DNA from: Thiomonas delicata
GTDB lineage: Bacteria > Pseudomonadota > Gammaproteobacteria > Burkholderiales > Burkholderiaceae_C
Reading direction: 5' to 3'
Length of the DNA: 64,000 bases
NCBI RefSeq assembly: GCF_900088825.1
Contig: NZ_LT592171.1
Span: forward strand, 792,425 to 856,424
The notes under the pieces were generated by a model. That model was not told the origin of the DNA and made no database searches. It worked only from the letters and a program-made list of their open reading frames with translations. Below, one piece after another: positions 4,799 to 13,313 of the stretch; position 1 is the stretch's first letter, and each line of letters opens with the position of its first letter. Both the position numbers and the translations under genes were made by a program.

Positions 4799-4875
4799 GA
4801 TCCGAGGGTTCGCGCGAGGATCGGCGCCTTCACGTCCAGCGTCTTCACCTCCAGCACATCCACCTGCTGGCGCAT
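4799..4875 (-). pseudogene. Start of a small coupled gene, cut by IS5 fragment
   Basis: An ATG at 4875 shares one base with the stop of the upstream AbrB-like gene (TGATG) and has GGAG about eight bases before it, a strong sign of translational coupling. About 24 codons follow (MRQQVDVLEVKTLDVKAPIL...), then the sequence turns into the IS5-like remnant. I do not recognise a family. It may be the broken last gene of the small operon that starts at 5602. Confidence 0.35.
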
Positions 4876-5144
4876 CACGGACACTCCACCGGCTTCACCG
4901 CGCGTTCAGCCCGGCGCACGCGCACCGTCCCGTCCTTGCCGACCTCCCAGGCCAAGGTATCCCCGGCTTCGACCCCGAGAGCCTTGAGGATCTCCGGCGG
5001 AATCCCAATCCCGCGGTGCTGGTTGCGGCGCTGGTTCTCCTGCTGCGCCTGCTCCGCCAGGCGCAGCACGAACAGCACGCTCCCCAAGGTGCAGAGTATG
5101 GCCACCGCGGCAGTGACATACACCCCCGTCATGAACGACATCAT
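4875..5144 (-). CDS. Membrane-anchored AbrB/MazE-like small protein
   Basis: An 89-residue protein. Residues about 6-28 (TGVYVTAAVAILCTLGSVLFVL) form one hydrophobic membrane segment, followed by a polar linker rich in Q, N and R. The remainder (GIGIPPEILKALGVEAGDTL, then WEVGKDGTVRVR) looks like the swapped-hairpin fold of AbrB/SpoVT/MazE DNA-binding antitoxins, where I/L-P-x-x-I/L...LG-x-x-x-G-D is the signature. AbrB proteins are normally soluble and have a K-G-Q motif that is not seen here. The start overlaps the stop of an upstream 44-codon frame (ATGA). Its function is unknown. Confidence 0.6.
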   Translation of the reverse strand: MMSFMTGVYVTAAVAILCTLGSVLFVLRLAEQAQQENQRRNQHRGIGIPPEILKALGVEAGDTLAWEVGKDGTVRVRRAERAVKPVECP

Positions 5145-5386: not shown

Positions 5387-5602
5387 TCAGACGCTTGCCA
5401 CCCAGAGCGTCTTGCCGCTGAGGCGGCATAGAGCGCGGATGCGCCCCTCGCGTTCGAGCTTGACGCCGAGTGCCGCACTGATGGGCAGACGCTGGTGCTC
5501 GGCGATCAAGGTGTAGCGGCGGCCGGCGTGGTGGGACTCTTCGAGCGTCGCGCCCTGGGCGACGAGCTGGACGAGTAGAGGATAGAGGCGTTCTTCGCGC
5601 AT
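5387..5602 (-). CDS. Small hypothetical protein
   Basis: A 71-residue frame with a good ribosome site (AGGAG six bases before ATG 5602). It starts MREERLYPLLVQLVAQGATLEES, likely helical, then a beta-rich part (RRYTLIAEHQRLPISAALGVKL) and ends GKTLWVASV. I recognise no family. It is the first gene of a run of small minus-strand genes (5602 down to about 4800) that shares no clear partner outside the run. Confidence 0.5.
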   Translation of the reverse strand: MREERLYPLLVQLVAQGATLEESHHAGRRYTLIAEHQRLPISAALGVKLEREGRIRALCRLSGKTLWVASV

Positions 5603-5917
5603 GGGAATCTCCTGAAGGCGTTGGACATTGCGGACGCACGAAGGGTGTGCGTGGTTCCAAGCTCGGGACCGCAGGGAGCGGTCGATTCAGGATCTGCGCG
5701 GGTGAGAAGGGCCTTTAAAACGTGAAGATGGACGGGAAGAGGCTTGAATCGTACCCGCGTTTGCGGTGTGCGCAAGTCGACGAACATGGTTCAGCATGGA
5801 TCCTGCCCGCCGGGTTGCCACATTACCGCATCGGGCAACTCGATTCGCCTGAAATCGTTTCGGATAGTCGGTCAATTAATTTTCAATTGGACGCTGATCA
5901 ATCTACAATCAGCCGAC
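5603..5917. other. Spacer between divergent genes
   Basis: About 315 bp between the small minus-strand genes and the DUF4143 ATPase. The right end is AT-rich and contains TACAAT at 5904-5909, eight bases before the ATPase start, a fair sigma-70 -10 element. If used, the transcript would begin within a few bases of the ATG and be nearly leaderless. No -35 of good quality and no gene are seen in the rest. Confidence 0.4.
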
Positions 5918-7198
5918 ATGCAAGCCTCCGAATATCATCCCCGTTTTGTCCAGCCCCGCTTGATCGAGGCCTTGCGCGATACGCCTGTTGCCCTCATCCA
6001 TGGGCCGCGGCAGTGCGGCAAGACCACGCTGGCGCGTGCCGTCGGTGCGCAGCACGGCTATGCCTACATCAGCTTTGACGATGACGTGCAGCGTGCTGCG
6101 GCCCAAACCGATCCGGTCGGTTTCGTGGCGGATTTGCCCGACAAGGTCATTCTCGACGAAGTGCAGCGCGTGCCCCTGCTGTTCACCACCCTCAAGGCCG
6201 CCGTTGACCACGATCGCCGCCCCGGGCGGTTCATCCTGACCGGCTCGGCGAATGTCCTGCTGTTGCCCAAGCTGGCCGATTCGCTCGCCGGGCGCATGGA
6301 GATCCTGCGCCTGCATCCGCTGGCGCAGGCCGAGTTGGCGGCGGTGCCGACGGACTTGCTGGCCGCCTTGTTCAGCGCCAGCTTCCCACCCCGGGCGCAC
6401 GTCCGATCCCCCACCCGACCCCATATCCAACCCCACGCCAGGCTGGGCAAGAGGTTGGCCGAACGGGTGGCCGCCGGAGGTTTCCCCGCTGCGCTTGCGC
6501 GTGGCACCTCACGGCGTCGCACCGCCTGGTACCGCGACTATGTCGAGACCCTGGTGCAACGCGATGTGCGCGACCTGGCACGCATCGCCGCCCTGGACGC
6601 CTTGCCCCGTCTGATGGCCATGGCTGCGGGACAAACGGCGCGTCTGCTCAACGTCACCGACCTCGCCGCGCCGTTCCAGCTCAGCCGCCCCACCATCCGC
6701 GAGTATGTGTCCTTGCTGCAGCGCATCTTCCTGTTGGAAGAGCTTCCACCCTGGCACAGCAACCGGCTGAGCCGCCTGGTCAAGACCCCCAAACTGCACC
6801 TGGGCGACACGGGTCTGGCTTGTGCCCTGCTCGGTGTCGACGCCCAGGGCTTGTGGGATGATCGTCGACTGTTCGGACAATTGCTCGAAACCTTCGTTTA
6901 CCAGGAGTTGCGCCGCCAGGCGAGTTGGGCCGGGGAGCGCAGCGCCTTCTTTCACTTCCGCGACAAGGACGGCGTCGAAGTCGACATCGTCGTCGAGCAA
7001 GGACAGAAGCTCGTCGGTATCGAGGTCAAGGCCGCATCGACCGTGACGGCAGCCGACTTCAAGGGTTTGCGCAAACTCCAGGACGCCGCTGGCGCACGTT
7101 TGATTGCTGGCGTGGTGCTGTATGACGGCGAGGCTGTTCTGCCCTTCGGGCCCGGCCTGCATGCCCTGCCGATCAGCGTCTTGTGGAAGGAGGTTTAG
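5918..7198 (+). CDS. AAA/DUF4143-type ATPase with nuclease-like C-terminus
   Basis: A 426-residue protein of the ATP-binding DUF4143 family. The Walker A motif GPRQCGKTTL is at about residues 29-38 and Walker B VILDEVQRVP at 77-86; the sensor ILTGSAN is at 106-112. The C-terminal DUF4143 part ends in FHFRDKDGVEVDIVVE followed by GIEVKAA, a D...E-x-K arrangement like PD-(D/E)xK nucleases. I place the start at ATG 5918, where family similarity begins, although no Shine-Dalgarno is visible. A proline/histidine-rich stretch at about residues 156-178 looks like an insertion. Family members are common in accessory DNA; their biochemical role is not established. Confidence 0.85.
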   Translation: MQASEYHPRFVQPRLIEALRDTPVALIHGPRQCGKTTLARAVGAQHGYAYISFDDDVQRAAAQTDPVGFVADLPDKVILDEVQRVPLLFTTLKAAVDHDRRPGRFILTGSANVLLLPKLADSLAGRMEILRLHPLAQAELAAVPTDLLAALFSASFPPRAHVRSPTRPHIQPHARLGKRLAERVAAGGFPAALARGTSRRRTAWYRDYVETLVQRDVRDLARIAALDALPRLMAMAAGQTARLLNVTDLAAPFQLSRPTIREYVSLLQRIFLLEELPPWHSNRLSRLVKTPKLHLGDTGLACALLGVDAQGLWDDRRLFGQLLETFVYQELRRQASWAGERSAFFHFRDKDGVEVDIVVEQGQKLVGIEVKAASTVTAADFKGLRKLQDAAGARLIAGVVLYDGEAVLPFGPGLHALPISVLWKEV

Positions 7199-7240
7199 CC
7201 CGGCTGGCAACCCGGGCCGAAGCCTCCCTAACAGCCCGCC

Positions 7241-9409
7241 TCACACAAACCCCATGGTTCCAGCTCCCACCCCACCCGGTTTGAAGCCGCATTCCGTTCG
7301 CAGCGCGATGACGAAGTCCTGCGCGCTGCGCAGGGGCTGTAAGCGATGCCGCCGCGCCACCGTGGCGAAGTCCCCCGGCGTCAGCGACGCCAGCGCCCGA
7401 AGGTCTTGCCGCAGCCCTTCTTCCGGCACGCCAAGTCCCAGGACCGCGCAATGACTGCCCAGCAAAGCCCAGGCCTGCTCCGGCCGCAAGGCCCGGAACT
7501 GCAGCTTCAGATCAAAGCGCCGCAGCGCCGCCGGGTCCAGCCCCTCCAGACGATTCGTCGTGGCGATGAACACGCCGGGGAAGGCCTCCATCTGCGTCAA
7601 CAACTCGTTCACCAGCGTCACCTCCCAGGCCTGCGCCGCGCCGCGCCGATCCTGCAGCAGGCCATCGATCTCATCGATCAGCAGCACCGCCCCGTCCTCC
7701 TGCGCGTCATGGAAGGCCCGCGCCACCAGCCGTTCACTCGCCCCCAGCCACTTGGCGAGCAGGTCCGACGCCCGCCAGAGCTGCAGCGGTCGCCCCAGTT
7801 GCTCCGCCAGCCAGCGCGCGTACGCTGACTTGCCCGTGCCGGGCAGGCCGTAGAGACACAGCCTGACGCCCCCGGTGTGGGAGGCGTGGGCGATGCCCTG
7901 GGCAATGGCCTGTAAATCCACGTCGGCATGGACCAGCCGCGGATCGTAGGTGCAAGGCAAACGCTGGGGATCGCAGGCCATGACGGCAGTGTGGCCCTGG
8001 GCCCGCAGGGTGTGATTGACCAGGGCGAGCAAAGCCGCATCGCGTTGCGCGGGATCCAGCCCTGCGCCGACCTGCCGCACCACATCCGCCGCCCGGGTCA
8101 GCACGGCTGGCGCCAGCACCGCGCTGGCCGCCAGGGCCGCCAGGGTCTCGGCCCCCACCAGCGCCCCCACAGTGGCCCGGGCGATGGAGTCGCGCACCTG
8201 TCGTGGCGGCACCGGAAGCTCCAGCACCAGATCGAAACGCCGGATCAGCGCGGCGTCCATCTCCCCCACGGCGTTCGTCACCCAGAAGGTGGGCACCGGG
8301 TTGGTCTCCAGCGCCCGGTGCAGCCAGCCCTTGCGGTGCTTGCCCGGGTTGGGACTGTGCAGAGCGAACAGGCCCGTGACGTCGCCCTCGGTCTGGCTGG
8401 TGAACACATCCTCGATCTCGTCGAACAGGATCAGCGCCCGACGCCGCGCCAGGAAGCGCTGCGCCGCCCGCCAGGCCCGCAGCCGCTGCTCCCCGCCGAT
8501 CGGATCGCCGTCCTCGTCCGCCGCGCTCACCTCCAGCAACTCACAATCCAGGACCGCGGCCAGCGTGCGGCACAGTTCGGTCTTGCCCGTGCCCGGCGGG
8601 CCGTAGAGCAGGACATTGGTGCCACGCTTGCTGCCTCCCGCCGAGTGGTGACCCAGGGCCGACGCCAGATAGGTGCGCAGCAGCGTCCGGCTCAGCCCCA
8701 GATGCGGGTAATCGTCCAGGGTGAGGCGCGCCGGAGCACTGGAGGCGACTGCCCCACGCAGCAGCGCCAGCGGCTCGGTGTCCGGCGCCAGCATGGCCTC
8801 GGCAAAGGAGGCCGAGAACAGTTCCAGCCGGGTGGACAACGTGCCCTGGCCCGCCCGCCTCAGACTCAGCAGTCCACTGTGGGCCAGCACCCCCGCCGGC
8901 GCCAGCGCCCGCTTCACCGCGACCTCGGGCAGGTCCAGCAACGTCGCCAGCACCCCGATGGCCTTCGCCGGGGTCAACGGTCCCAGGGTGTCGGCGGCGT
9001 CCTCGAACAGCCGCAGCGTCTGCAACAGACAGGCACAGCCCAGCAGCCGGCAGTCCACGGCCGAGAGCTGCACCAGGGCCGCCAGGCGTGCCAGGTTCTC
9101 CTCCAGCGCGACCGGCAGCGCGAACGCGTCGGCCTGTGCCTCCAGCGCCTGCCAGTCGGATTCGAGCACGCGGCGGATCGCGACCAGGCCGGCGGCGTCC
9201 GTGCCGCCCTCCCGCAGATCGTGGGGCACGCCCAGCGTGGCGAGCAGACCGGACGCGCCCTGGCCGTCATGCACGAGCTGGCGGAGCCCGCCCAGCGGCA
9301 GCAGGATGCGCAGCAGCCACAGGCGCACCAGGGGGACTGGCGGCTCGGGCACAGGCGAGCGCGTGGGGGTGTCGTTCAGGGCGTCGAGCAGGCGTTGATG
9401 GCGTGGCAT
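7241..9409 (-). CDS. Tandem AAA+ ATPase (two modules)
   Basis: A 722-residue protein with a helical N-terminal region (about 1-240) and two complete AAA+ modules. Module one has Walker A GPPGTGKTE at about 270-278, Walker B LILFDEIEDV at 327-336 and a second-region RRFD at 390-393. Module two has GLPGTGKSA at 521-529, VLLIDEIDGL at 575-584, the sensor IATTNR and RRFD at 630-633. This is the CDC48/SpoVK-like class, in which both modules usually form hexameric rings that remodel proteins. No protease or nuclease domain is attached. It is followed 51 bp upstream by a membrane protein in the same direction, a probable partner. Substrate and process are unknown. Confidence 0.85.
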   Translation of the reverse strand: MPRHQRLLDALNDTPTRSPVPEPPVPLVRLWLLRILLPLGGLRQLVHDGQGASGLLATLGVPHDLREGGTDAAGLVAIRRVLESDWQALEAQADAFALPVALEENLARLAALVQLSAVDCRLLGCACLLQTLRLFEDAADTLGPLTPAKAIGVLATLLDLPEVAVKRALAPAGVLAHSGLLSLRRAGQGTLSTRLELFSASFAEAMLAPDTEPLALLRGAVASSAPARLTLDDYPHLGLSRTLLRTYLASALGHHSAGGSKRGTNVLLYGPPGTGKTELCRTLAAVLDCELLEVSAADEDGDPIGGEQRLRAWRAAQRFLARRRALILFDEIEDVFTSQTEGDVTGLFALHSPNPGKHRKGWLHRALETNPVPTFWVTNAVGEMDAALIRRFDLVLELPVPPRQVRDSIARATVGALVGAETLAALAASAVLAPAVLTRAADVVRQVGAGLDPAQRDAALLALVNHTLRAQGHTAVMACDPQRLPCTYDPRLVHADVDLQAIAQGIAHASHTGGVRLCLYGLPGTGKSAYARWLAEQLGRPLQLWRASDLLAKWLGASERLVARAFHDAQEDGAVLLIDEIDGLLQDRRGAAQAWEVTLVNELLTQMEAFPGVFIATTNRLEGLDPAALRRFDLKLQFRALRPEQAWALLGSHCAVLGLGVPEEGLRQDLRALASLTPGDFATVARRHRLQPLRSAQDFVIALRTECGFKPGGVGAGTMGFV

Positions 9410-9460
9410 GGTTCAGCGTGGCATTGGAGGGGGATGGATGTGATGGATGAGCGCCTCGAG

Positions 9461-10237
9461 TCAGCGCGCGGCGTCCGGGGGCGCTTGAACGGCCGCGGCG
9501 GCTTCGGCTTCGGCTGTTTCGGTCGCATCCAGGCTCAGGCCCAAGGCCAGGCCCACATGGTGGTCGTAGCGGGTGGGCAGCCACATCGCCAGCCCCAGCG
9601 CCGTGCCCAGCAGCCAGGGCAGGGCGCGACAGCCGTGCGCAGGCTGGTGGGCCAGGACCCAGCCCACGCCCCGAGCCAGTCCCCAGGCCAGACCCGCCAG
9701 CAGCGCCACCGTCGTCCAGGCCCAGCGCCGGGCGCACCGCCAGTGCCGCAGGACCTCGCCCCCCAGGGCTTCGGGCCGCAGCCGCTTCAGGGTGGAGGCC
9801 AGGGGCAGGGCCTGCAGATCATGGCCGCTGGCACGGAACACCGACTTGCGCCAGGCCTCGTCACGGCCGAGGTGCAGGATGCCGCGGCCATACAGCCCGA
9901 CCAGGGCGAACGCCAGCAGCAGGAATGCCCGGCTCATCCCGGGTGCATGGGAGAGCAGGGTCGCACTGCCCAGGGCCGCAGCCAGGATCAGCCAGGGGGC
10001 GAACAAGGTGGTGACGCCCAGGGCGGCGGCAAGACGCAGGCCCGCCATGCGGCGTGCGCCTTGCGGAGATTGGCCACGGTGTGCAAAGCGGCGTTGCAGC
10101 CCCAGGCGGACGCGATGACCAGCCGGCGAGTCGGTCCAGAACAGCACGAGCAGGATGTCGCGCAGGGCGGTCAGGCGGCGGCACAGCCGCGATGGGGGTG
10201 ACGAGGATGCGGGTTGCGCTGAGGGTTGGATGGGCAT
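9461..10237 (-). CDS. Multi-pass membrane protein paired with the tandem AAA+ ATPase
   Basis: A 258-residue protein starting at ATG 10237 with GGAG seven bases before it. Hydrophobic segments lie at about residues 68-90 (AGLRLAAALGVTTLFAPWLI), 100-117 (FLLLAFALVGLYG), 172-195 and 205-225. The N-terminus is basic and the C-terminus alanine-rich. No known domain is recognised. The gene lies immediately before the tandem AAA+ gene on the same strand, so the two are probably co-transcribed and act together at the membrane; this is inferred from position only. Confidence 0.6.
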   Translation of the reverse strand: MPIQPSAQPASSSPPSRLCRRLTALRDILLVLFWTDSPAGHRVRLGLQRRFAHRGQSPQGARRMAGLRLAAALGVTTLFAPWLILAAALGSATLLSHAPGMSRAFLLLAFALVGLYGRGILHLGRDEAWRKSVFRASGHDLQALPLASTLKRLRPEALGGEVLRHWRCARRWAWTTVALLAGLAWGLARGVGWVLAHQPAHGCRALPWLLGTALGLAMWLPTRYDHHVGLALGLSLDATETAEAEAAAAVQAPPDAAR

Positions 10238-10485
10238 CGTGGACGCTCCGGGACGAGGATGCAGACCATCTCATCACAGGAAGGCGCGGATGCAAGTCGA
10301 CGCCAGCCGACGTCAGCGGGGGCGGGACACAGAGTCGGGAGTCAGCCGATGCGTCGGCGACCTGGGCAGGTCATGCGGCTCGCCACCCTCGGAAGGCTTG
10401 GGATCTGCCCGGGCTGGGCTCAGCGCGTAGGCTATATATTCGACCGTAGCGATGGACGCGAAGCTGCTGCTCTACGAGTCGGGGT

Positions 10486-11361
10486 TCAAAGAGCGGCTCG
10501 GTTCAACGCAGGTGCCAGGGCGGATCGCAACCGATCCACGATGACAGGCAGGGGCTCGGGGGTAAGCGCGTTCTTCTTGAAGAACGCCAGCCACAGCGAC
10601 GCCCGCGAGGAATCGAGTGCGAATTCCTCCGACAGCCCAATCGGCAGCGCATCGGGCACAGCCATGCCGCGCCGATCAAAGGTGGCCTTGATCGCTTTGG
10701 CCAGCAAATCGATGTCCAGGGTTTCTCGTTCCAGCAGAACCGACAGATCGAAGTAGTCCTTCAGGCGGCTGTTGGTCATGCCCAACAGGGCGATAGCGTG
10801 GAGTTTTTCTGCAATGACCGTGTACGTCGGGTAGGCCCGCAGCCGGGGAGCGGGCAGATCGTCCAACAGCACTGGATAGACCGAATCCACCGGAGCGGGC
10901 GTGACGACATCGCCGAAGCCGACATCGATCTGCGTCTTGCAGCGCGCCTTGGCCAGCTCGCCAGCGATGATCACCCGGACGCCGCCGTAGCCTGCCTCCT
11001 TACGGATTTCCTCGACCGTGACCGAGGTTGGGTCAAATACGATGCCGTCGTCAGCAGCCACGGCGGCGATGTCGCGGAAAGTCTCAGCGACCGAAGCCAG
11101 ATCGCTCGCGCCGAAACCAAGCAGATCGGCGTCGCGCGTGGCCCGGTGCGGCATGTCGTACCAGAGTGTGAAGAGCAGCGCGCCTTTGAGCAGAAAGCGA
11201 TCGGCGTGCCGCGATTGAGTCAGGCGGTAGAGGATGCGTTCCAGCGCGAAGCGCACCAGCACCTGATTGAAATCGACGCCCTGCGCTTTGGCGACGTTGA
11301 GCAGGCGCGCACGGACGGACGCGGCGACACTCGCCTGATTCGTTGGACGCGCCGGGCTCAT
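10486..11361 (-). CDS. abiEii: AbiEii toxin, nucleotidyltransferase
   Basis: A 291-residue protein of the AbiEii/AbiGii family. The nucleotidyltransferase signature is visible: FLLKGALLFTLW at about residues 56-67 and the catalytic T-R-D-A-D at 75-79. The family motif R-L-K-D-Y-F-D-L follows in the second half. AbiE toxins transfer nucleotides, to tRNA acceptor ends in studied members, halt growth and can abort phage infection. Its start overlaps the stop of the antitoxin gene by four bases (ATGA), giving coupled translation in the usual antitoxin-first order. All catalytic residues appear present. Confidence 0.9.
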   Translation of the reverse strand: MSPARPTNQASVAASVRARLLNVAKAQGVDFNQVLVRFALERILYRLTQSRHADRFLLKGALLFTLWYDMPHRATRDADLLGFGASDLASVAETFRDIAAVAADDGIVFDPTSVTVEEIRKEAGYGGVRVIIAGELAKARCKTQIDVGFGDVVTPAPVDSVYPVLLDDLPAPRLRAYPTYTVIAEKLHAIALLGMTNSRLKDYFDLSVLLERETLDIDLLAKAIKATFDRRGMAVPDALPIGLSEEFALDSSRASLWLAFFKKNALTPEPLPVIVDRLRSALAPALNRAAL

Positions 11362-11963
11362 GCGACGCTCTCCAGATAGGGCCGCATCACGTTGGCTACG
11401 CGGCAGATCTTGGCATAGCGCCAGATGTCATCGACCGATGCCTTGTTGCGGGCCCGCGCGTCCTTCAGGGCCTCCAGCGCCACATCCAGGCCGATCTTGT
11501 TGCGGTGCTTGAAGCAGTCCGCCACGGTCTTTGCAATACCGTACACCCGGAGCTTGACGCCATCGCGTTCAATTTCCTCGACGCCTGCCGTGTAAGCGTC
11601 GCCCGTGAACTGCACCATCTTGATCGGCGGATGGTCGAACCGTGGGGCATGGCTGCCGCGCGGCATGGCGATCCAGACCTGGCGCGGCAGTTGGGTGGTC
11701 AGTTCGTGGAACTGCAGCGCGGTGAGCAGGCAGAACACGGCTTGCGGCACCTTGGTGGCGACGGTCACGAGACTCTCAAATTCCGACCCGTTGGAGTCCG
11801 TCAGACGGTACAGGCCACGCCCAATCTTTTCCAGCAGGCCAGCGGCGGTCAGGCGCGTCAGGACGACCCGGGGCGCATCGATGGCGTCCAGATCGCTGGC
11901 GCGCAGCATCCCCTTCTGGCTGGCCAGAACGAGGACGCGCTGAGTGTGTGTGTCGGGGAGCAT
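11358..11963 (-). CDS. abiEi: AbiEi antitoxin and autorepressor
   Basis: A 201-residue AbiEi-type protein. The N-terminal winged helix (about residues 5-55, LVLASQKGMLRASDLDAI...VVLTRLTAAGLLEKIGRGLYRL) binds DNA. The central part has the family stretch CLLTALQFHELTTQLPRQVWIAMPRG, and the C-terminal part holds the antitoxin function in studied homologues. Translation starts at ATG 11963. A perfect inverted repeat lies 22 bp upstream and is the probable autoregulatory site. The toxin gene overlaps its stop. Confidence 0.9.
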   Translation of the reverse strand: MLPDTHTQRVLVLASQKGMLRASDLDAIDAPRVVLTRLTAAGLLEKIGRGLYRLTDSNGSEFESLVTVATKVPQAVFCLLTALQFHELTTQLPRQVWIAMPRGSHAPRFDHPPIKMVQFTGDAYTAGVEEIERDGVKLRVYGIAKTVADCFKHRNKIGLDVALEALKDARARNKASVDDIWRYAKICRVANVMRPYLESVA

Positions 11964-11984
11964 GGCTGGAGTATGTTCCGTTTA

Positions 11985-12010
11985 TTCGTCGAATGCAATC
12001 GTTCGACGAA
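11985..12010. promoter_or_regulatory. Perfect inverted repeat, probable AbiEi operator
   Basis: Nine-base arms TTCGTCGAA (11985-11993) and TTCGACGAA (12002-12010) are separated by eight bases. Each arm is itself nearly palindromic around TCGA. It lies directly upstream of abiEi. AbiEi proteins are known to bind inverted repeats in their own promoter, so this is the expected operator position. Confidence 0.75.
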
Positions 12011-12060
12011 AAATAGGAGCATGCCCGCGATGACGGGCTGGCTCGTCGGCGCAGGCACTT

Positions 12061-13065
12061 TCAGTCCGCCTTGAGCCGATCCGCCATCGTCTCGGCGCTT
12101 TCGTTGTAATAGATTTGCAGCATGCGAAGATCCTTGTGCCCGATCATCCTCGCCAGATCGAGAATGGGGAGTTTCTTGGCTAGCCGGGTGACAGCGGTAT
12201 GCCGCAGATCGTGGAAATGCAGATCCTCGATCATGGCGAGCTTCTTCGCTTTGCGCCACAGCGAATCAATCTGCGATGTATTCAGATCAAAAACTCTGGC
12301 CGTGAGGTCGACCGGATCCGGTTTGAGCCCAGACAACACGGTTTGCGCTACGGGTGAGAGCGGAACACGGCGTGTTGCTGCGGCAGTCTTGCCTGAACGG
12401 ACCGTCACGACGGTCGGAGCGACGTCGGCCCAGGTCAACTTGGCAATTTCGCCGACACGCATGCCCGTCTCGACAGCGAACACCGCAGCGGCTCCAATGC
12501 GCTCCGAAATCGTGGATGGGCGCTGTCCGGGCTGATAGCTGAGCGCAAAGAGGATGCGATCCAGTTCCGCCTCGGTTGCCAAGCGATCTCTTGGCGGGGT
12601 TGGGGGAGGGCGCCGCACCCCAGTAAACGGGTTTTCGGCCAGCCAATGCCACTCCTTGACGGCCAGACTGCAGGCGTGCGACAGCAGGTTCCACTCGCGC
12701 TGCACCGATGCTGGGCTGACTTGCTTCAATCGCCGGTCTCTCCATGCGGCGACAGCCGGTTGCGCCAGGCGCACCAGCGGAACCTCGGCAATCGCATCTC
12801 GCAATGTCAGATTGATGCGCGTGACCTCCCAGCGCTTGCCGCGCTTGTATTCGCTGACATCATCTCGATAGCGTTCGAGCAGTTTGGCAAACGTCGCCCC
12901 AGCGGGGGCGGCTGAGCCACCGGTAACACCAGCGCCGATTTCCCGCTCAACTTGTTCGACCCATACATAAGCCGCAGCCTTCGTATCGAAGGTTGCCGAC
13001 CGGCTCGCGCCATTGCGCCTGACTTGCGCCCGAAAAGTCTTGCCGCGTTTGACGACCGTTCCCAT
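12061..13065 (-). CDS. Tyrosine site-specific integrase
   Basis: A 334-residue tyrosine recombinase. I choose ATG 13065 (MGTVVKRGKTFRAQV), preceded by a purine-rich GGAAGGGGAACGGGA; an upstream in-frame start at 13182 would add an unlikely leader. An N-terminal arm-binding part leads to a SAM-like core (about 58-150) and the catalytic domain. Catalytic residues are visible: R203 in TGMRVGEIAKL, H285 and R288 in FHDLRHT, H310 in MIGHKD and Y319 or Y320 in LQIYYNES. The gene begins 172 bp from the 3' end of a tRNA-Thr, the standard layout of an island integrase at its attachment site. Confidence 0.93.
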   Translation of the reverse strand: MGTVVKRGKTFRAQVRRNGASRSATFDTKAAAYVWVEQVEREIGAGVTGGSAAPAGATFAKLLERYRDDVSEYKRGKRWEVTRINLTLRDAIAEVPLVRLAQPAVAAWRDRRLKQVSPASVQREWNLLSHACSLAVKEWHWLAENPFTGVRRPPPTPPRDRLATEAELDRILFALSYQPGQRPSTISERIGAAAVFAVETGMRVGEIAKLTWADVAPTVVTVRSGKTAAATRRVPLSPVAQTVLSGLKPDPVDLTARVFDLNTSQIDSLWRKAKKLAMIEDLHFHDLRHTAVTRLAKKLPILDLARMIGHKDLRMLQIYYNESAETMADRLKAD

Positions 13066-13237
13066 TCCCGTTCCCCTTCCGCTTGGTGCAGCACCTGGTG
13101 CAAATTTGGTGCAAATGGTATGGGAAACGGCGACAAACGGTGGCGCTTGATGCCGATTTTCGGCAAGAAAAAAGCCACGCAACTCATTGAATTACGGGGC
13201 TTTATGGGGTTAAGCGGTGTTTAATGAAACATGTTCG

Positions 13238-13313
13238 TGGTGCCGGTGAAAGGAATCGAACCCTCGACCTTCTCATTACGAATGAGCTGCTCTACCAACT
13301 GAGCTACACCGGC
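13238..13313 (-). tRNA. tRNA-Thr (anticodon CGT)
   Basis: On the minus strand the cloverleaf is complete. The acceptor GCCGGTG pairs with CACCGGC, the D arm is GCTCAGTTGGTAGAGC, and the anticodon loop TTCGTAA gives CGT. The T arm contains GGTTCGATTCC, the discriminator is A, and CCA is encoded (13238-13240). The anticodon stem shows the G27-A43 mismatch also found in other bacterial tRNA-Thr(CGT). Its 3' end faces the integrase gene, so the 3' half is the likely island attachment site. Confidence 0.95.

Follow-up and report, generated by a model that had tools for sequence, protein, structure and literature searches.

A mobile gene pair of Thiomonas, encoding an orphan membrane protein and a tandem AAA+ ATPase, is a minimal variant of a partner-swapping ATPase arrangement

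We found that a tandem AAA+ ATPase gene and the membrane protein gene upstream of it (hereafter MEM) form a two-gene unit of 3.2 kb in the window, i.e. the whole 64,000-nucleotide stretch of Thiomonas delicata DNA analysed here. The unit spans 7238-10428 on the minus strand, its limits being those of DNA similarity to other islands, and it travels between islands as one piece. It is a minimal two-gene form of an already known but unstudied ATPase arrangement, in which the family retains the ATPase and swaps its partner (DUF2779 together with WYL, Sir2 or, here, a four-TM orphan protein), a swap that is read from gene neighbourhoods and not from function. Within this arrangement the pair is a recent, shallow variant.

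The coordinates, strand and order of the two ORFs are as a preceding sequence-only reading had listed them: the ATPase (722 aa) occupies 7241-9409 and MEM (258 aa) 9461-10237, both on the minus strand and separated by a gap of 51 nt, in which no terminator was found. That reading had placed the pair in mobile DNA between a DUF4143 ATPase and an AbiE system, and both neighbours are indeed present, accompanied by an integrase and a tRNA-Thr. The island is located at tRNA-Thr(CGT) (13238-13313), its integration site, and comprises a tyrosine integrase (12061-13182), the antitoxin AbiEi (11358-11963) and the type IV toxin AbiEii (10486-11361), all on the minus strand, in addition to the pair; AbiE adjoins the pair in the island but consists of separate genes. 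The DUF4143/AAA_14 ATPase gene (5744-7198, plus strand, PADLOC PDC-S01) is convergent with the pair. Two small ORFs, one of 71 aa (MREERLYPLL..., 5387-5602) and one of 89 aa with one TM (MMSFMTGVYV..., 4875-5144), recur beside many islands (L101, L104, L118, L121, L171) and are likely conserved island genes of unassigned function.

Besides the window, the pair is present at one further site of the window genome (L101), on the chromosome of Thiomonas sp. 3As and, in two copies, in a third genome. The 3As chromosome most likely corresponds to G309, a genome assigned to another genus that carries the same island with 98.7% identity over 7235-13248, the similarity stopping within the tRNA gene. 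As dnaK is 84% identical between the two genomes, the island must have moved recently. The G309 island is without the stretch 5781-7234, which holds DUF4143 in the window, and its element is inserted in the terminal part of a ferredoxin-like (4Fe-4S) gene (L168:6507-6690) and not in a tRNA gene. The element of L169 is located at tRNA-Leu, and L101 and L170 carry the pair in islands without AbiE.

One edge of the similarity between the window and L101 (88%), at 7238, lies three bases beyond the ATPase stop; the other, at 10428, lies 191 bp before the MEM start. This upstream boundary, at 10426-10428, is found again in L001, L105, L122 and L145. Constant co-occurrence of the two genes across genomes, proposed earlier as a check, was borne out in part. 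Where clade-A MEM genes are followed by readable, undisturbed DNA, the ATPase follows within 49-55 nt in five of five cases (window, L101, L168, L169, L170), but the pairing fails across the ATPase family and MEM also occurs without the ATPase. In genome G013 three MEM copies have an IS directly after them, with the ATPase broken or missing. Both genes are under purifying selection. Synonymous divergence in G013 amounts to 0.37 for MEM and 0.09 for the C-terminal half of the AAA gene, so the two have not always been evolving as one block. A putative extra ATPase fragment at L101:10666-11130 was discarded, as its 465 bp are 100% identical to window 9040-9504 and lie beside runs of N, probably a scaffolding artefact.

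A 36-bp motif, GTCGACTTGC-N18-TGNGATGG, is located at 10266-10301 (minus strand), 28 bp upstream of the MEM start. Five whole genomes contain eight matches to it, all eight upstream of MEM genes or their remnants, and no match to its reversed version. It also precedes a 45%-identical MEM paralogue (L119) that has another downstream gene. The motif is probably a promoter or operator. Because MEM has this upstream motif of its own and occurs without the ATPase, we regard the pairing as conserved but shallow.

MEM had been described as a membrane protein of no known family, and it remains one: searches against the Pfam, NCBIfam, PADLOC and PHROGs libraries gave no hit (best Pfam E=0.13 among 13 members). 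The suspicion that its ORF might be a spurious frame was laid to rest by homologues in the window genome and in related genomes and by dN/dS values of 0.29-0.46 among close homologues. Hydropathy maxima at residues 69-87, 105-123, 177-195 and 202-220 correspond to about four TM helices. The basic loops, on the N-terminal side and at 124-176 (11 K/R), are predicted to be cytoplasmic, and by the positive-inside rule the topology would be N-in/C-in. It is this second loop that holds the best-conserved motifs of the family, YGRGxLxLGR.DAW and ARRWAW. The AlphaFold2 model is all-helical and of moderate confidence (pLDDT 73), and with it the best PDB match had E=0.58, no solved pore or channel being matched.

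MEM was convincingly scored only in two sister genera, Thiomonas and its sister, where it occurs in 5 of the 28 genomes of the genus and in two of the sister genus. The MEM profile, run against 399 genomes from the order and 398 from the phylum, returned the window genome only, plus one match with E=7.5e-4, and MEM was not found in viral contigs or in phage and plasmid collections. In Wohlfahrtiimonas (CcmB-like, judged by eye) and Leucothrix the ATPase gene is preceded by genes for TM proteins that are unrelated to MEM and sit in fixed chromosomal neighbourhoods. The window genome has three divergent MEM copies without the ATPase (L116, L117, L118; one truncated), thus the ATPase is not obligatory for MEM. 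At L119 and L171 the MEM paralogues are directly followed by a different gene (L119:304-1077, L171:4685-5458), whose 257-aa product has no Pfam match; its start overlaps the MEM end by 11 bp and it may be another partner of MEM.

The description of the ATPase as a double-ring type with two intact Walker A and B sets is confirmed by two Pfam AAA matches (E=4.7e-42) and by an alignment of 110 full-length homologues, in which the Walker A glycines and the Walker B DE of both modules are invariant. A helical, putatively winged-helix-type N-terminal region (residues 1-261) is followed by AAA1 (about 262-470) and AAA2 (about 513-722). AAA1 has Walker A GPPGTGKT (residues 270-277, 8579-8602; G270, G273 and G275 unchanged in all 110) and Walker B ILFDE (327-331, 8417-8431), while AAA2 has Walker A GLPGTGKS (521-528, 7826-7849), pore loop 1 KWLG (553-556, 7742-7753) and Walker B LLIDE (576-580, 7670-7684), all on the minus strand. 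The sensor-1 Asn (379, 619) and the arginine pairs (390/391, 630/631) are likewise 100% invariant. In AAA2 residue 554 is aromatic in 109 of the 110 homologues, and Gly556 and Glu559 are present in all; by these residues the loop is a classical substrate-threading pore loop, which makes the protein remodelling suggested earlier a reasonable activity. The AAA1 counterpart is acidic and without an aromatic, so the ring that carries out translocation appears to be AAA2. The nearest solved relatives of this ring are VCP/Cdc48-type unfoldases. The N-terminal region, previously called unusual, is in fact the normal one for its ATPase family and probably winged-helix related: 22 of 54 homologous regions match winged-helix PF22977, and the window's own, although short of E=0.1, aligns with the matching homologues and has helices and short strands there in the predicted structure. 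A structure comparison, also proposed earlier, yielded a confident model of this region (pLDDT 86) and no Foldseek match in PDB or BFVD.

The ATPase is not an orphan either. It belongs to the broad proteobacterial family phrog_10401, labelled 'ATP-binding protein', whose profile it matches at full length (E=1.5e-107, residues 26-711 against profile positions 12-658 of 667), and plasmid-borne relatives of about 700 aa in PLSDB carry the same label. These relatives share the domain order and have both AAA modules intact; they differ in their neighbours, which are DUF2779/WYL or Sir2, MEM being absent outside the window clade. The earlier statement that the ATPase has no known effector therefore does not hold for the family. 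In 101 related genomes 12 of the 16 DUF2779 genes have a homologous ATPase gene no more than 8 kb away. Among the best 25 of 33 partner families the most frequent adjoining ones are WYL (8), Sir2 (6) and DUF2779 (6), and further frequent ones are SIMPL (4), PD-(D/E)XK (3) and WCX, a domain of WYL proteins. Defence-type genes near the relatives include BREX, HipA and SNF2/PLD. For DUF2779, which contains a PD-(D/E)XK domain, 3'-5' exonuclease activity is predicted (PMC3985635), and WYL regulators have been found alongside phage defence (PMC9122601). A phage origin was considered and rejected: besides the lack of MEM hits in the viral, phage and plasmid collections, the ATPase query found no relative in viral contigs and only one unannotated 'Bacteriophage sp.' entry.

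In a rapidly computed tree, which gave some long-branch warnings outside the region of the window, the window and L101 ATPases form one clade inside the DUF2779-associated ATPases (SH-aLRT 95-99%); their nearest relatives are L102, L002 and L003, then L109, all of them DUF2779-associated. Sir2 and WYL neighbours are scattered over the tree, and the MEM gene adjoins only ATPases at least 83% identical to that of the window. Neither pair of the window genome (window, L101) has a DUF2779 gene beside it, both DUF2779 genes of this genome being unlinked to the pairs, and the genes called and scanned around the window pair include no WYL gene. Some AAA-DUF2779(-WYL) operons (L108:7773-13766, L103:7626-15000, L149, L151) have unannotated genes of about 400-470 and 600-650 aa downstream, followed by SNF2/DEAD-type helicases, in some cases with PLD/tyrosyl-DNA-phosphodiesterase matches and a weak match to PADLOC ZacB.

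The AAA-DUF2779-WYL operons (e.g. Diaphorobacter and Rhodoferax plasmids L148/L149; L002, L003, L109, L113) encode a homologous ATPase with 48-57% identity and are, like the pair, accessory and plasmid- or island-borne, whereas the pair is without DUF2779 and WYL and has the four-TM orphan upstream instead. IetAS consists of the AAA ATPase IetA and the subtilisin-like protease IetS. IetA is the top-scoring PADLOC and NCBIfam profile for the window ATPase, but for the AAA core only: its score of 111.7 bits falls below the cut-off of 510, and the model has 367 positions, compared with the 722 residues of the protein. An IetS-like protease is not adjacent, the neighbours being MEM and DUF4143, and the S8 family is absent from the best 25 of 33 partner families of the ATPase. 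Cdc48/VCP also has two AAA modules, the second with an aromatic pore loop. In contrast to it, the window ATPase has no Cdc48 N-domain among the matches listed, scores 76.2 bits with the CDC48 model (cut-off 802.65) and has the acidic loop in place of pore loop 1 in AAA1. We rejected an identity as IetA, TRIP13 or Cdc48, since these best-scoring profiles cover the ATPase core only.

As to function, we tentatively favour the possibility that the pair is a mobile conflict (abortive-infection-like) cassette, in which an AAA+ machine would control a membrane effector. The N-terminal region of the ATPase would recognise a trigger or client, and the ATPase would remodel it and thereby restrain or free MEM. 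MEM, which would occupy the effector slot that a nuclease holds in the relatives, would act on the inner membrane by permeabilising or depolarising it, and the infected or stressed cell would be arrested or die. This reading draws on the sharp edges of the unit at several sites, the conserved 49-55-nt pairing, purifying selection and recent island transfer, as well as on the nesting among DUF2779-associated ATPases, the frequent DUF2779, WYL, Sir2 and PD-(D/E)XK neighbours in the family, the defence-type neighbours, the invariant Walker motifs and the near-invariant AAA2 aromatic. Against it stand the MEM genes without an ATPase, a partner swap seen in neighbourhoods only, the scattering of Sir2 and WYL, the unequal divergence in G013 and a MEM model of moderate confidence that matches no solved pore or channel. 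Phage defence by the pair is plausible from the gene context. The wider proposal, that tandem AAA+ ATPases of this family serve as the fixed chassis of an undescribed, modular defence system with a lineage-exchanged effector (DUF2779 exonuclease/PD-(D/E)XK, a Sir2-type enzyme, or the new four-TM orphan MEM with its own conserved promoter element), appears rather doubtful.

A membrane-anchored remodelling or quality-control role without killing, in which MEM as an adaptor would bring the AAA+ ring to the inner membrane for clients to be extracted or unfolded, by a logic like that of FtsH-adaptor or Cdc48, is unlikely in our estimate. The classical pore-loop ring of AAA2 with its unfoldase relatives would suit it, as would the large, likely cytoplasmic loop 124-176 with its conserved motifs; yet these motifs are retained in ATPase-free MEM copies, so the loop is not specifically an ATPase dock, the pair is strictly accessory and mobile, and no protease gene adjoins it.

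MEM might also be a hitch-hiker: a small selfish or mobile cassette, independent of the ATPase and equipped with a promoter of its own, would have inserted once upstream of the ATPase gene, and the ATPase would work alone or with DUF2779/WYL encoded elsewhere in the genome. The genome-unique motif retained upstream of the L119 paralogue, the ATPase-free copies and the two unlinked DUF2779 proteins of the window genome agree with this. We consider it quite unlikely, given that the pairing persists over 12% protein divergence and in at least four integration settings (tRNA-Thr, tRNA-Leu, the secondary site in G309 and the L101 island), with a terminator-free 51-nt gap and purifying selection on both genes. 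Very improbable is a toxin-antitoxin-like pair maintained by addiction rather than for phage defence, with a toxic MEM and the ATPase as antidote: it would fit a two-gene mobile unit adjoining AbiE with the MEM gene first, but intact MEM genes beside broken or lost ATPase genes in G013 indicate that MEM is tolerated without an antidote, unless silent, and a 722-aa double-ring ATPase would be an unusual antitoxin.

Carried on islands and plasmids and repeatedly found next to nuclease, Sir2 and WYL genes, this large, uncharacterised double-ring ATPase family makes a good conflict-system candidate. A clade in which a compact membrane protein of an orphan family, with a probably private regulatory motif, replaces the nuclease would reveal the effector part in a simple, testable two-gene unit. 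Thiomonas strain 3As, whose genome is fully sequenced, appears to carry the pair, which makes a test in a culturable host possible.

A separate observation concerns an element in G013 that encodes a 692-aa serine recombinase and a 66-aa ORF (L104:5390; L105:6407, 8992; L106:6241, 8809). It looks like a recombinase targeting Walker A coding DNA, of which a paper search found no description. In three homologous ATPase genes its insertion point in the first Walker A codons is identical (GGCCCGCC|), and it also adjoins Walker A in an istB gene. The right end of the element creates a new start and a P-loop-like VTASPGTGKT.
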